A stretch of DNA of 33,627 bases from NCBI GenBank assembly GCA_024278375.1, contig JAJRTH010000012.1, forward strand, positions 1 through 33,627, written 5' to 3'. The number at the start of each line of letters is the position of its first letter. Position 1 is the first letter of the stretch. The stretch is from an archaeon (lineage in GTDB: Archaea > Thermoplasmatota > Thermoplasmata > WALJ01). This document shows, piece after piece, positions 3,358 through 7,424 of the stretch. The notes beneath the pieces were generated by a model. That model made no database searches and was not told the DNA's origin. It saw only the letters and a list, made by a program, of their open reading frames with translations. The translations under genes and the position numbers were made by a program.

Positions 3358-4002
3358 GTGGATACCCTATCTTTCATTGTGACCGCAATAGCAGCAATAT
3401 TCTCCATTGTCAATCCCATAGGAGCAATACCTCTTTTCGTCACAATAACCGAAGGATATTCGAAAAAGGAAAGACTGAATGTGATAACAAAGGCGATTTT
3501 TTCGGCTTTCGTCATCCTCCTGACCTTCGCCATATTCGGCAACTTCATATTTGCCTTTTTCGGGATCACCATATATTCTTTCAGAATAGCCGGAGGTCTC
3601 CTTTTGATGACCGTGGGTTTTAGCATGATGCGCGGACAACCACCGCGAACAAAAAGCACTCCCGAGGAAAGGCTGGAAGCCGCAGAAAGAGAGGAGGTTG
3701 GCATAGTTCCGATGGGCACTCCTATGCTGGCCGGCCCTGGATCGATAACAACTGTAATGATACTCATCTCCAAAAGCGAAGACGGATTGCAGGCAGGGGC
3801 AGTTCTTTTCTCCATACTCATCACCTTAATAATAGCCTATCTTCTTTTCATATATGGAGATAAGATATTTGAAAGGGTTGGAAAAGTCGGTGCCAGGGCA
3901 TTTTCCAGGATAATGGGTCTCATACTGACGGCTATTGCCGTACAGTTCATCATAGAGGGCATACGTTCCATACTCATAGAATGGGGCGTGCTTCTCGGAT
4001 AG
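3358..4002 (+). CDS. MarC-family integral membrane protein
   Basis: The 214-residue protein is very hydrophobic, with about six membrane segments. It carries the MarC/UPF0056 signatures NPIGAIPLFV near the N-terminus and PMGTPMLAGPGSITT in the middle, so the family assignment is firm. The family's transport role and substrate remain uncertain. It starts at GTG 3358. An AT-rich box (aaaattatta, about 3327-3336) centred 25 bases upstream suggests a leaderless transcript separate from ileS. The next gene follows after 34 bases. Confidence 0.9.
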   Translation: MDTLSFIVTAIAAIFSIVNPIGAIPLFVTITEGYSKKERLNVITKAIFSAFVILLTFAIFGNFIFAFFGITIYSFRIAGGLLLMTVGFSMMRGQPPRTKSTPEERLEAAEREEVGIVPMGTPMLAGPGSITTVMILISKSEDGLQAGAVLFSILITLIIAYLLFIYGDKIFERVGKVGARAFSRIMGLILTAIAVQFIIEGIRSILIEWGVLLG

Positions 4003-4036
4003 GAAAAGATTGATAACAGGAAGGATATGCAGGCGC

Positions 4037-4819
4037 ATGATTACAAGGATGAGATTCTTGGGTACAGGCGGCGGAAGATTTTCCACCATATTCCAGTCCC
4101 GTGCCACCGGTGGCATCTACATAGAGAGCGGCATAAGGCTTCACGTGGACCCTGGACCCTGCTCACTCAATCAACTTAAAAATTTCCACATAAACCCCAC
4201 AAAAACCGATGTGCTTCTGATATCGCACTGCCATCCGGATCATTACACGGACGGAGAGATAATGGTGGAGGGTATGACACATGGCGGAAGGAAGAGAAGG
4301 GGGCTTTTGGTCGGTTCCAAAAGCGTCTTGGAGGGTGTGGATGACGTAGGCCCTGCCATATCTCCATACCATCGTTCCCTGATAAACCATAAAACCCTCG
4401 AAGCCGGTGATTTTCTGAACCTCGGTGATGTCGACCTAGAGGCGACCCGTTCCGTGCATTCCGACCCGACCACCATCGGTTTCAAGTTTCATACGCAGAA
4501 CGGTGTGATATCCTATGTGGCGGATACGGAGCTTTCTGACGAGGTCGTGGAGGCACACAGGGGCGCGAGGGTTCTTATACTGCCCGTAACAAGGCCGCGC
4601 TCTTCCAGAATCGACTGGCATCTTTCCACGGAGGATGCTGTGGATTTCATAAAAAGGGTTGAGCCGGAAATAACCTTCTTCACGCATTTCGGACTGAAGA
4701 TGCTCAGAGTTCCGCCTGAAATAGAGGCCTACTGGGTACAGGAAGAGACCGGATATAGGGTCATAGCAGCCAAGGACGGCATGAAGGTGAGCATAGGCAC
4801 CAGAATAACGGTGAAATGA
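4037..4819 (+). CDS. metallo-beta-lactamase-fold hydrolase
   Basis: The protein has 260 residues. The zinc-binding signature HxHxDH appears as HCHPDHYTD; further fold ligands are likely the H of SVHSDP, the D of YVADTE and the H of FFTHFG. The N-terminus MRFLGTGGGRFS is typical of RNase Z/PhnP-like members, but the substrate cannot be told from the sequence. The frame opens at TTG 4010. ATG 4037 (aaggat upstream) or ATG 4049 are better starts, the latter giving MRFLGTGG directly. Its stop overlaps the start of the pterin enzyme gene (ATGA), so the two are translationally coupled. Confidence 0.88.
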   Translation: MITRMRFLGTGGGRFSTIFQSRATGGIYIESGIRLHVDPGPCSLNQLKNFHINPTKTDVLLISHCHPDHYTDGEIMVEGMTHGGRKRRGLLVGSKSVLEGVDDVGPAISPYHRSLINHKTLEAGDFLNLGDVDLEATRSVHSDPTTIGFKFHTQNGVISYVADTELSDEVVEAHRGARVLILPVTRPRSSRIDWHLSTEDAVDFIKRVEPEITFFTHFGLKMLRVPPEIEAYWVQEETGYRVIAAKDGMKVSIGTRITVK

Positions 4820-5457
4820 TGGAGTACCGGGAGTGGGAGCTCTATTACCTGAGAATTCTGGAAGATTTCGGATTCGATAGGGAAAAGGATGTCGAAGCCG
4901 GAAAGATTCTCGCGGAACTTCTGAAAGGGCATGATCTGGTTGACTTCAGCGCTCTGAGAGCGGTGATTTCTGGGAAGGACGTCCTTATTACGGGGCCTCT
5001 TACTAGGAAAATCCCCGACACAGGGTATGTAATAATAGCAACCGACCTCTCCACCGCAATTCTGCTTGAAAAAGGGATCGTGCCGGACATCATTGTCACG
5101 TACCTCGACGGAGATGTGGAAGATGAGATCGAAGCGAACGGAAAAGGTTCCGTTGTGTTGATTCACGCTCACGGAGACAACACGGATTCTCTGAGGAGAT
5201 ATGTTCATAGGTTCAAAGGAAAGATAGGAGGGACTGTACAGACCGAACCGTTTTTCCCGCTCATGAACTTCGGAGGTTTCACGGACGGAGACCGGGCTGT
5301 TTTTCTGGTGGAGAGCGCCGGAGCTAAAAGAATATACCTGACAGGTTTCGATTTCAAGAATCCGGTCCCGAAAGCCGGAAAAGATATTGAAATAAAGAAA
5401 AAGAAGCTTTTATGGGCCGAAGCCCTTATTTCTATTTTCGATGTGACCTATCTCTAG
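4816..5457 (+). CDS. mptE: MptE-like (DUF115) 6-hydroxymethylpterin pyrophosphokinase
   Basis: The protein has 213 residues. The segment running from LITGPLTRK through ATDLSTAILLEKGIVPDI to VTYLDGDVEDEIEANGKG matches the archaeal DUF115/MptE family, which transfers pyrophosphate from ATP to 6-hydroxymethyl-7,8-dihydropterin in methanopterin or folate synthesis. LDGD and the later HAHGDN are likely metal/ATP-binding positions. Two adjacent ATGs (4816, 4819) are possible starts; the first overlaps the upstream stop. The 3' end overlaps that of the convergent VWA gene by 4 bases. The family call is good; whether the product feeds methanopterin or folate is unknown. Confidence 0.82.
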   Translation: MMEYREWELYYLRILEDFGFDREKDVEAGKILAELLKGHDLVDFSALRAVISGKDVLITGPLTRKIPDTGYVIIATDLSTAILLEKGIVPDIIVTYLDGDVEDEIEANGKGSVVLIHAHGDNTDSLRRYVHRFKGKIGGTVQTEPFFPLMNFGGFTDGDRAVFLVESAGAKRIYLTGFDFKNPVPKAGKDIEIKKKKLLWAEALISIFDVTYL

Positions 5458-6947
5458 AACTGGTCGAAGTCTTCCTCCTCAAACTCTTCGTCCTCGAAAT
5501 CCTCGTCGAATTCATCCTCGAAATCCTCGTCAGATTCGTCCTCTGGCACCACCTCTTTGTCCGTTGTTCCGAGGTCGAATATAAGCGACTGAGCGGCACC
5601 CTCATAGAACTTGGCCAGCTCCTTGAACTCTTTCGGTATTATCAACTGTCCGTTGGTTATCTCCGTTATCCTCTTCAAGGTGTCTATGGCTATCTGGGCC
5701 CTCTCCTTTTTCTTTATAAGCCTATCGGCCTCCTCTCCTTCCGGAATCTCTTCAAGCTGCTCTGGAGTATCCCCTATGTAGACCGCATTTATTATTACGC
5801 CCCTTGATGGTGGAAAGCGCTCCTTTACGAAGTTCACTATGGCCTCGGAGACTTCTAACACATCTTCGGTCTTGGCGAAACTTCCTTTCCAGCCGTTGAA
5901 CTCTCCGTCTGACAGGATGATTATCATGGTGGGCATCCTCTTCTTGGAGTCCTTCTCCATGAGGGTAAGAAGCTTATCGAGTTCTTCGAAGGCATTGACT
6001 CCATTGGTCGGCTTGTTGCTCTCTTTTGGTATGTATGCGAAAAGCATCTTTATGAGCATTTCTTTGTACTGTTCTGTTGTTTCAACGCCTGCGGCACCTA
6101 TCTGGAGCCAATATCTTATCTTTCCCTTGTACTTGTATGCAGCGCTCTTGGCTTGGCTGGAATAGGTTATCAAAGCGACTCTTTCGCTCAGTTCTCTCTC
6201 GGCCTTCTCAGAGAAATACAGAAGAACGGCTGTTATGGCCGCATGAATCCTAAGAATCTCTTTGTCGTTCTCCACACTTCTGACTGTCTCCTCCAACATC
6301 TCATACTTTGGGTCCTCCATGAGTTTGCTTATTATCGGATCGCCCGAGAGCTTCATAAGACCGGGGGAATTTGGTATGTAATTGAAGTACATAGATCCTG
6401 AAACATCCACCATCAAAATGCCGTTGAACGGCGATGTTACTGATACTTTGACCTTGGTATTGGGCGTATAGACCGCATACGGGAAGGGAGATACCTTTGC
6501 AACGGTAAGAGATATGCCTCTCTCATCCCAGTATATTTTTGCACCGTGATTGAAAACCGGCTGCTTTTCCCCGAAGAATCTGTGCACCTCCTCGCCGCCG
6601 TTCTCATTTATTTCGCGAACGACTTCAAGGAGCTCCTCCCTCTCTCTCCCTTCCATCTCTACTTTGAGAACGACCTCTTCGGCACTCACTTCTTCGGCGC
6701 TTATTATATCCAACGCATCTCCGTTGGTCGCACCTGAAAGCTGAGCGCTCAGCCTGTTTATGTGTGCCTCGTCCTTTCGCACCCTGCCATCAAGTATAAC
6801 CCTGTAATATTTCGATTCTCCTCGATCCCTGTTGAACACTTCAACTATGTCTTTGCTCTTGAGTCCGAGTTTCTTCCCGGTTGTTCTGTTTATCTTTATT
6901 GCCCAGGAGTCGACGTTGTCCTTCAATACTGCCGAAAGAGGTTCCAT
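5454..6947 (-). CDS. Cdc48/VAT N-domain-like protein fused to a von Willebrand A domain, acidic tail
   Basis: The protein has 497 residues. Residues 5-85 resemble the double-psi barrel of archaeal Cdc48/VAT (WAIKINRTTGKKLGLKSKDI compared with the VAT pattern of a small gene-spanning run ending in xxxGDVVEIE). Residues 86-170 resemble the second N-subdomain and end in ISLTVAKVSPFP...TKVKVS. A VWA domain follows at about 174-455 with an intact MIDAS: DVSGS at 181-185, T314 and LSDGE at 346-349. The last 35 residues are almost all D/E/F. There is no AAA domain and no MoxR-type ATPase next door. A ribosome-binding site ggtgac (6956-6951) and a TATA-like box near 6977-6985 support the start. The VWA call is sure; the VAT-N call is by eye. 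Confidence 0.85.
   Translation of the reverse strand: MEPLSAVLKDNVDSWAIKINRTTGKKLGLKSKDIVEVFNRDRGESKYYRVILDGRVRKDEAHINRLSAQLSGATNGDALDIISAEEVSAEEVVLKVEMEGREREELLEVVREINENGGEEVHRFFGEKQPVFNHGAKIYWDERGISLTVAKVSPFPYAVYTPNTKVKVSVTSPFNGILMVDVSGSMYFNYIPNSPGLMKLSGDPIISKLMEDPKYEMLEETVRSVENDKEILRIHAAITAVLLYFSEKAERELSERVALITYSSQAKSAAYKYKGKIRYWLQIGAAGVETTEQYKEMLIKMLFAYIPKESNKPTNGVNAFEELDKLLTLMEKDSKKRMPTMIIILSDGEFNGWKGSFAKTEDVLEVSEAIVNFVKERFPPSRGVIINAVYIGDTPEQLEEIPEGEEADRLIKKKERAQIAIDTLKRITEITNGQLIIPKEFKELAKFYEGAAQSLIFDLGTTDKEVVPEDESDEDFEDEFDEDFEDEEFEEEDFDQF
5491..5531. repeat. 24-bp period tandem repeat in the acidic tail
   Basis: An exact 17-base unit (tcctcgaaatcctcgtc) occurs at 5491-5507 and 5515-5531, 24 bases apart. 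It encodes the E/D/F-rich repeat at the C-terminus of the VWA protein. Slippage at this low-complexity stretch would change tail length by 8 residues per unit. Confidence 0.8.
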
Positions 6948-7008: not shown

Positions 7009-7308
7009 CTAGGCGCTAACCAGAGGGAGAAGAAGGTGCCTTATTGCATGGAGTTGTTCGGGATTCTTTCCACTGACAGTTACGATGACATCTTTCAGGG
7101 TGAACTGTATCTTAAGGGGAGATTCGTCTATTACCTCGATACCTTCCAGATCCTTTATGGGAATCTCATACAGTTTGTCTCCCGCCCCTATGAGTATCCC
7201 GGAGAGCGCCAGATAGAGTTGCCCCTCCTTCCATTTCAACTCGACATTGACCTCTCCGTCCATGAGCTGAACTGAGAATGCCACATCTTCGACTTTTTTC
7301 ACTTTCAT
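7009..7308 (-). CDS. small protein of unknown function
   Basis: The 99-residue protein is predicted to be mostly beta-strand, with alternating hydrophobic residues, and ends in AIRHLLLPLVSA. The frame opens further upstream (7389), but ATG 7308 is preferred: a TATA-like box (aatatatag, about 7348-7340) lies the right distance upstream, and MKVKKVEDVAFSV makes a sensible N-terminus. There are no cysteines, catalytic motifs or membrane segments. Its compact strand pattern and LLLPL ending remind me weakly of archaeal CheF-like proteins, but I would not name it so. It has its own promoter between its neighbours. Confidence 0.65.
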   Translation of the reverse strand: MKVKKVEDVAFSVQLMDGEVNVELKWKEGQLYLALSGILIGAGDKLYEIPIKDLEGIEVIDESPLKIQFTLKDVIVTVSGKNPEQLHAIRHLLLPLVSA

Positions 7309-7424
7309 ATTATTCTCGTATTCGCCTATTGCACAACCGCTATATATTCTTTTTGGAAATCCGTGTGACTCTCCCCGCTGAAGACCCAATTAATCGAATG
7401 GAACAGAGGGTGATATATTCCCTT

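Follow-up and report, generated by a model that had tools for sequence, protein, structure and literature searches.

A VAT/Cdc48-type N-domain joined to a VWA domain in Thermoplasmata: a candidate subunit of a proposed archaeal amide-bond modification module

The window analysed here, a stretch of 33,627 nucleotides from an archaeon of the Thermoplasmata (contig JAJRTH010000012.1), encodes a protein in which a VAT/p97-type N-domain is joined to a VWA domain with a complete metal site. We tentatively propose that this protein acts as receptor or scaffold subunit in an archaeal module for amide-bond modification, which has three parts, or five in some lineages, and whose other core members are a GCS2/YbdK-type carboxylate-amine ligase with the glutamine synthetase (GS) fold and an Amidohydro_2 hydrolase that depends on metal. 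The original prediction, made from the sequence of the window, had read these domains correctly; the adaptor or decoy function that it attached to them is possible but is not what the genomes point to first. The partners that genomes do show are the GCS2-type ligase, the amidohydrolase, ubiquitin-like proteins (Ubls) and, beside two members of the family, genes for type IV pili.

The fusion gene begins with an ATG that is common to all of its orthologues in the same GTDB family (f1; 92, 86 and 81% identity) and is also the start in a second family (f15; 56% identity), represented by CP070739 (Methanomassiliicoccales archaeon bin396) and CP070751 (Thermoplasmata archaeon bin33). Between the fusion genes of the host genome (G000) and of G001, pS is 0.74, with synonymous sites saturated, and pN is 0.043; over the orthologue comparisons pN lies at about 0.04-0.13, again with saturated silent sites. 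Saturated silent sites together with a low pN indicate a conserved protein rather than a chance ORF; by this measure the gene is real, and purifying selection on it is strong (Table 1). On the plus strand a gene for an MptE-like pyrophosphokinase (4816-5457; identity read from the sequence) is convergent with it and overlaps its stop by 4 bases, an arrangement kept in the f1 relatives. A minus-strand gene of 126 aa with no Pfam match (7009-7389) lies 61 bases upstream of the fusion; in our neighbourhood comparison this adjacency was not kept in relatives.

Table 1. Features of the VAT-N-VWA fusion gene, in window coordinates
Feature	Position	Strand	Basis
VAT-N-VWA fusion gene, 497 aa	5454..6947	-	ORF/translation, orthologues, purifying selection
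Double-psi beta-barrel half, VAT-Nn-like, residues 1-84	6696..6947	-	hhalign, Foldseek, Molydop_binding match
Second subdomain, VAT-Nc-like, residues 90-170	6438..6680	-	hhalign continuing to residue 169; strand/helix order in models
VWA domain, residues 174-455	5583..6428	-	Pfam VWA/VWA_2
MIDAS DxSxS motif, D181-S185	6393..6407	-	Invariant in family
MIDAS T314	6006..6008	-	Invariant in family
MIDAS D347 (SDGE)	5907..5909	-	Invariant in family
Acidic D/E/F tail, residues 463-497	5457..5561	-	Composition

The claim that residues 5-170 follow the order of the VAT N-domain was borne out by profile comparison and by fold search alike. Aligned with hhalign, six fusion N-domains matched a set of about two dozen VAT-N domains, all from Thermoplasmata, in the host's own phylum, at E 4.7e-7 over 137 columns spanning both subdomains, whereas the best of 60 column shuffles reached E 0.017. 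The fusion-family profile by itself also recovered a Cdc48 N-domain, identified on reading its locus. The Pfam and NCBIfam signals for this region, taken alone, would be hints only: TIGR01243 (CDC48) is colinear with the fusion (residues 7-111 on model positions 9-113) at E 0.006, or E 6.3e-4 when scored within its own genome, and Pfam Molydop_binding, another double-psi barrel, matches residues 16-64 at E 0.005. Searched against the PDB, the family profile gave weak matches (E 0.02-0.1) to the double-psi beta-barrel (DPBB) of AMP phosphorylase, a designed DPBB and yeast Cdc48. Matches to the Aureocin and TOM22 domains, which were short, low-complexity or chance, were dropped.

AlphaFold2 models, built from a six-sequence alignment whose shallowness accounts for their modest mean pLDDT (54.7 for the full protein, 66.8 for the N-domain), place the structural elements in the order of VAT-Nn and then Nc. 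For the full model the 50 best PDB fold matches in Foldseek were Cdc48/p97; for the N-domain modelled separately they were Cdc48/p97 or the related Pex1 N-domain, so that structure prediction gave the VAT/p97 N-domain fold and not an unrelated one. The N-domain of p97 alone scored TMt 0.68 against the full model and about 0.45 against the N-domain model, the lower value perhaps reflecting a different placement of the two subdomains. With Nn and Nc both present and homologous in sequence to VAT-N, we regard residues 1-170 as a confirmed VAT/p97-type N-domain. The protein is nevertheless no Cdc48/VAT ATPase: Pfam and NCBIfam models found no AAA domain in it, the remainder being VWA. It shares with VAT, Cdc48 and p97 the fold, the Nn-Nc order and detectable sequence homology but has a VWA domain in place of the AAA domains, and for that reason cannot form a Cdc48 ring by itself. 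The Cdc48 adaptor Ufd1 likewise carries a Cdc48-N-type fold outside an AAA ATPase; Ufd1, however, has no VWA domain, no Npl4-like partner was seen here, and the likeness is one of shared fold only.

The second part of the domain reading, a VWA domain following the N-domain with its metal site intact, also proved correct. Pfam VWA and VWA_2 match the host protein weakly and its relatives strongly (E 2.4e-11 for L115, 1.5e-15 for L019), and D181, S183, S185, T314 and D347 are invariant in two alignments, one of nine and one of seven diverse members; judged by these residues, the VWA domain carries a complete MIDAS. The tail is as originally described, with D, E or F at 29 of its 35 residues. Its length varies and its character is common to f1 and f15, being shorter and E-rich in the latter; f6 members have no such tail, those of f11 and f22 carry two zinc ribbons and that of f41 has a K/E-rich tail. 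The acidic tail is not a fixed part of the fusion family. The C-termini read DQF, DKF or DDF in f1 and VGE or VEA in f15, with no HbYX proteasome-docking motif.

The same fusion was found in other archaea. Of 400 genomes searched in the class, nine have fusions of the f1/f15/f6 type, and reading of loci added members in G047 (f6), G101 (f11) and G065 (f22); a further VAT-N plus VWA protein occurs in another class (G405, f41), its N-domain matching VAT-N at E 2.5e-6. The layout is thus that of a protein family which, though sparse, spans six or more families of the phylum to which the host belongs. A scan of all GTDB species, which used motifs specific to f1 and f15, found members only in these two. 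Taken alone, the f6 N-domains match VAT-N at E 0.075, which is within the shuffle range and not significant, whereas f6 together with f11 and f22 matches the f1/f15 N-domain at E 2.4e-8; the membership of f6, f11 and f22 therefore rests on a chain of homology through f1/f15. Among the candidates rejected, L012 came from the genome scan through a short motif that the fusion has in common with its DPBB, and proved to be a molybdopterin oxidoreductase, and L020, a weak profile match, turned out on reading the locus to be a large surface protein with a VWA domain of its own; weak matches in G017 and G027 were taken, by similarity, to be of the L020 kind. No relative of the fusion was found on viral contigs, and a fold search of BFVD, whose best matches include Cdc48-like AAA and Ufd1-like proteins of giant viruses, gave no match named as VWA.

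Literature searches, with a coverage outside which most subscription journals fall, returned no paper that describes the VAT-N-VWA fusion or the module; the original prediction, likewise, stated that no described family of this layout was known to its author. The fusion is a new combination of known domains, within a module that is apparently undescribed.

The association with the two enzymes takes different forms in different lineages. In f15 (G018 and G028) two genes precede the fusion in its operon, the first for a carboxylate-amine ligase of 502 aa, GCS2/YbdK-like, and the second for an Amidohydro_2 protein of 488 aa; the fusion is the third and last. In f6 (G062, G070, G078 and G047) the distant form of the fusion gene is convergent with that of a 730 aa ligase carrying an N-terminal membrane segment, beyond which come two small Ubl genes and a 370 aa form of the hydrolase; this five-gene cluster is complete in G062, G078 and G047, and the G070 contig ends before the hydrolase. 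In the host genome the ligase (3857-5392) and hydrolase (5376-6809) form an operon on contig 52, away from the window, with 47-48% identity to the f15 pair.

Across the class, the ligase family was present in 12 of the 400 genomes, namely all nine in which the class search had found the fusion, together with G047, G050 (f22) and G003, a member of the host genus in which no fusion was found and whose MAG is 82% complete. Counting the deeper members, ten genomes have both genes, two the ligase only, two the fusion only and 386 neither. Because the genomes are related, a genus-level figure is fairer than this genome-level table; Fisher's test on genera, treated as independent, gives p 1.5e-5, on a basis of four to five lineages and incomplete MAGs.

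Both enzymes should be active by motif. The ligase keeps the GhExE motif of the carboxylate-amine ligase superfamily as GIEVE or GIECE, or in f1 as ALEME (AhExE, with G changed to A), this motif being the Mg/ATP site of PafA and GCS2 (PMC2588565). The hydrolase keeps the HxH, Lys, two His and Asp of its superfamily. Among models the ligase is closest to the YbdK/gshA-related ones, and among structures to YbdK (1r8g, E 1.6e-10) rather than PafA.

The f6 cluster contributes the Ubls. UblA and UblB have N-terminal ubiquitin-like domains (for UblB, Pfam ubiquitin at 3.4e-9 and, by profile, single ubiquitin structures at about 1e-4 to 1e-5) and a common C-terminal WLxxNIG domain; this domain, of unknown family, occurs at L028:9343-11532 and L028:11652-12606 both in the ligase, in its N-terminal region, and in the two Ubls. 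Neither a C-terminal GG nor a Glu is conserved in them. A search for E2 found it in f15, f5, f11, f14, f18 and f25 but in none of the genomes of f6 and f1, where these Ubls, if used, probably do not depend on an E2. In the host family, f1, no Ubl was detected. The f6 Ubls are thus detectably related in their Ubl domain to those of canonical archaeal E1-E2-Ubl operons, but differ in their second domain, in the end that lacks a conserved GG and in genomes without a detected E2, and E1-E2 ubiquitin-like conjugation is not what f1 and f6 present. A protein of 435 aa from f15 (G018, L132:6804-8111) consists of Ubl, WLxxNIG domain, f6-type VWA and zinc ribbon; here a Ubl stands in place of VAT-N at the head of the same type of VWA, which ties Ubl and VWA together. 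Elsewhere in the class, a locus of G008 (L134:5915-7405) is an operon with E1/ThiF (E 1.9e-48), E2 of the UQ_con family (3.2e-13) and a GG-motif Ubl, and in G086 (L150:2811-4439) a Ubl with a GG end adjoins E2; small Ubls of these kinds occur in many genomes of the class.

The chemistry and recognition that we infer for the module would run as follows. On a protein or peptide, the ligase would couple a carboxylate with an amine, the hydrolase would reverse the resulting amide bond, and the VAT-N-VWA protein would recognise the modified or client protein, its MIDAS binding one partner and the groove of its N-domain another. The groove of the p97 N-domain binds UBX, a ubiquitin-like fold, and for this reason Ubls may be the natural ligands or tags in the lineage that has them. 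Hand-over of the client to the Cdc48 of the cell, whose N-domain is of this type too, is a plausible last step; degradation of clients through Cdc48 or the proteasome is unproven. The host has two full-length Cdc48/VAT paralogues, on contigs 15 (L033) and 40 (L034), of which only the latter ends in an HbYX-like YYS, and on contig 13 (L035:1132-3419) a gene for a PAN-like proteasomal ATPase is immediately followed by one for another VWA protein, which by our reading resembles those of Mg-chelatase type.

Several observations weigh against this proposal, and the rival explanations draw on them. In G101 and G065 the fusion occurs with no detected ligase and adjoins T2SSE/T2SSF and prepilin-like genes, G101 having a Ubl on the far side as well, and in G078 (L102:2021-9000, contig 28) a second amidohydrolase and Ubl pair lies beside archaeal pilin, T2SSE and T2SSF genes. 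With these neighbourhoods it is a serious rival view that the protein is a regulatory or structural component of an archaeal surface system like the type IV pilus, in which the VWA protein would control or anchor the filament while the enzymes modify pilins or surface proteins. The membrane segment of the f6 ligase would suit it, and vWA proteins have been proposed as type IV pilus modulators in archaea (PMC4858521). Even so, we consider it rather unlikely, given that in the main clusters of f1, f15 and f6 neither the fusion nor the ligase has a recognised pilus gene beside it and that VWA and pilus genes are close in two MAG contigs only. ArnB-type and MoxR-associated archaeal VWA proteins share with the fusion a MIDAS VWA and, in these two members, the pilus proximity; the fusion differs in its VAT-N head, and no MoxR/GvpN ATPase or FHA partner was recognised in the neighbourhoods read. 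The match solely to MoxR-associated VWA proteins envisaged as an alternative to the original prediction did not occur.

The ligase itself raises the question of substrate. Enzymes like YbdK mostly make small gamma-glutamyl compounds, as most of the carboxylate-amine ligase superfamily makes small-molecule products (PMC2588565), and the module could make and recycle such a compound, with the VAT-N-VWA protein as chaperone or regulator of the two enzymes. The lack of a detected Ubl in f1 would fit, but the f6-cluster Ubls and the G018 Ubl-VWA fusion point to protein ligands, and we hold this unlikely. A further reading, in which the ligase would extend acidic protein tails, the fusion's own among them, with glutamates that the hydrolase takes off again, accords with the use of glutamate in the superfamily and with the tail character kept in f1 and f15; since an acidic tail is absent from the members in f6, f11 and f22 while f6 has the same enzymes, it is highly improbable. 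Rpn10 uses a VWA domain at the proteasome, and this, with the Cdc48-type N-domain and the host's Cdc48 paralogues and PAN, favours the originally suggested adaptor or decoy that would bring VWA-bound clients to Cdc48 or the proteasome with no covalent modification. Rpn10, however, has no N-domain, and the genomes show no proteasome link for the fusion: in the neighbourhoods read, none of the genes close to it was recognised as Cdc48, PAN or 20S, which counts equally against the hand-over step of our module. The absence of an HbYX end also speaks against the adaptor. As the adaptor idea would also leave the association of ligase and hydrolase unexplained, we judge it decidedly unlikely.

The amide-bond module that we prefer resembles pupylation (PafA, Dop and Pup) in its GS-fold carboxylate-amine ligase, possible bond-reversing enzyme and possible receptor, but it is not pupylation: its ligase is YbdK-like, its reversing enzyme would be an amidohydrolase rather than a PafA paralogue, no Pup was recognised, and Ubls are present in some lineages only. 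A full protein-tagging system, in which the GS-fold ligase replaces E1 and E2 for Ubls, the amidohydrolase acts as deconjugase and the VAT-N-VWA receptor passes tagged clients to Cdc48, seems to us a distinctly improbable form for it to take; if true, ubiquitin and Pup would be joined by a third build of ubiquitin-like system. Little is known of how archaeal proteins are selected for Cdc48 and the proteasome, and the fusion, ligase, hydrolase and, in some lineages, Ubls make up a compact group of genes open to in vitro tests of chemistry and binding. If the substrates are proteins, the module would represent a new type of protein modification, with parts common to the ubiquitin and Pup systems.
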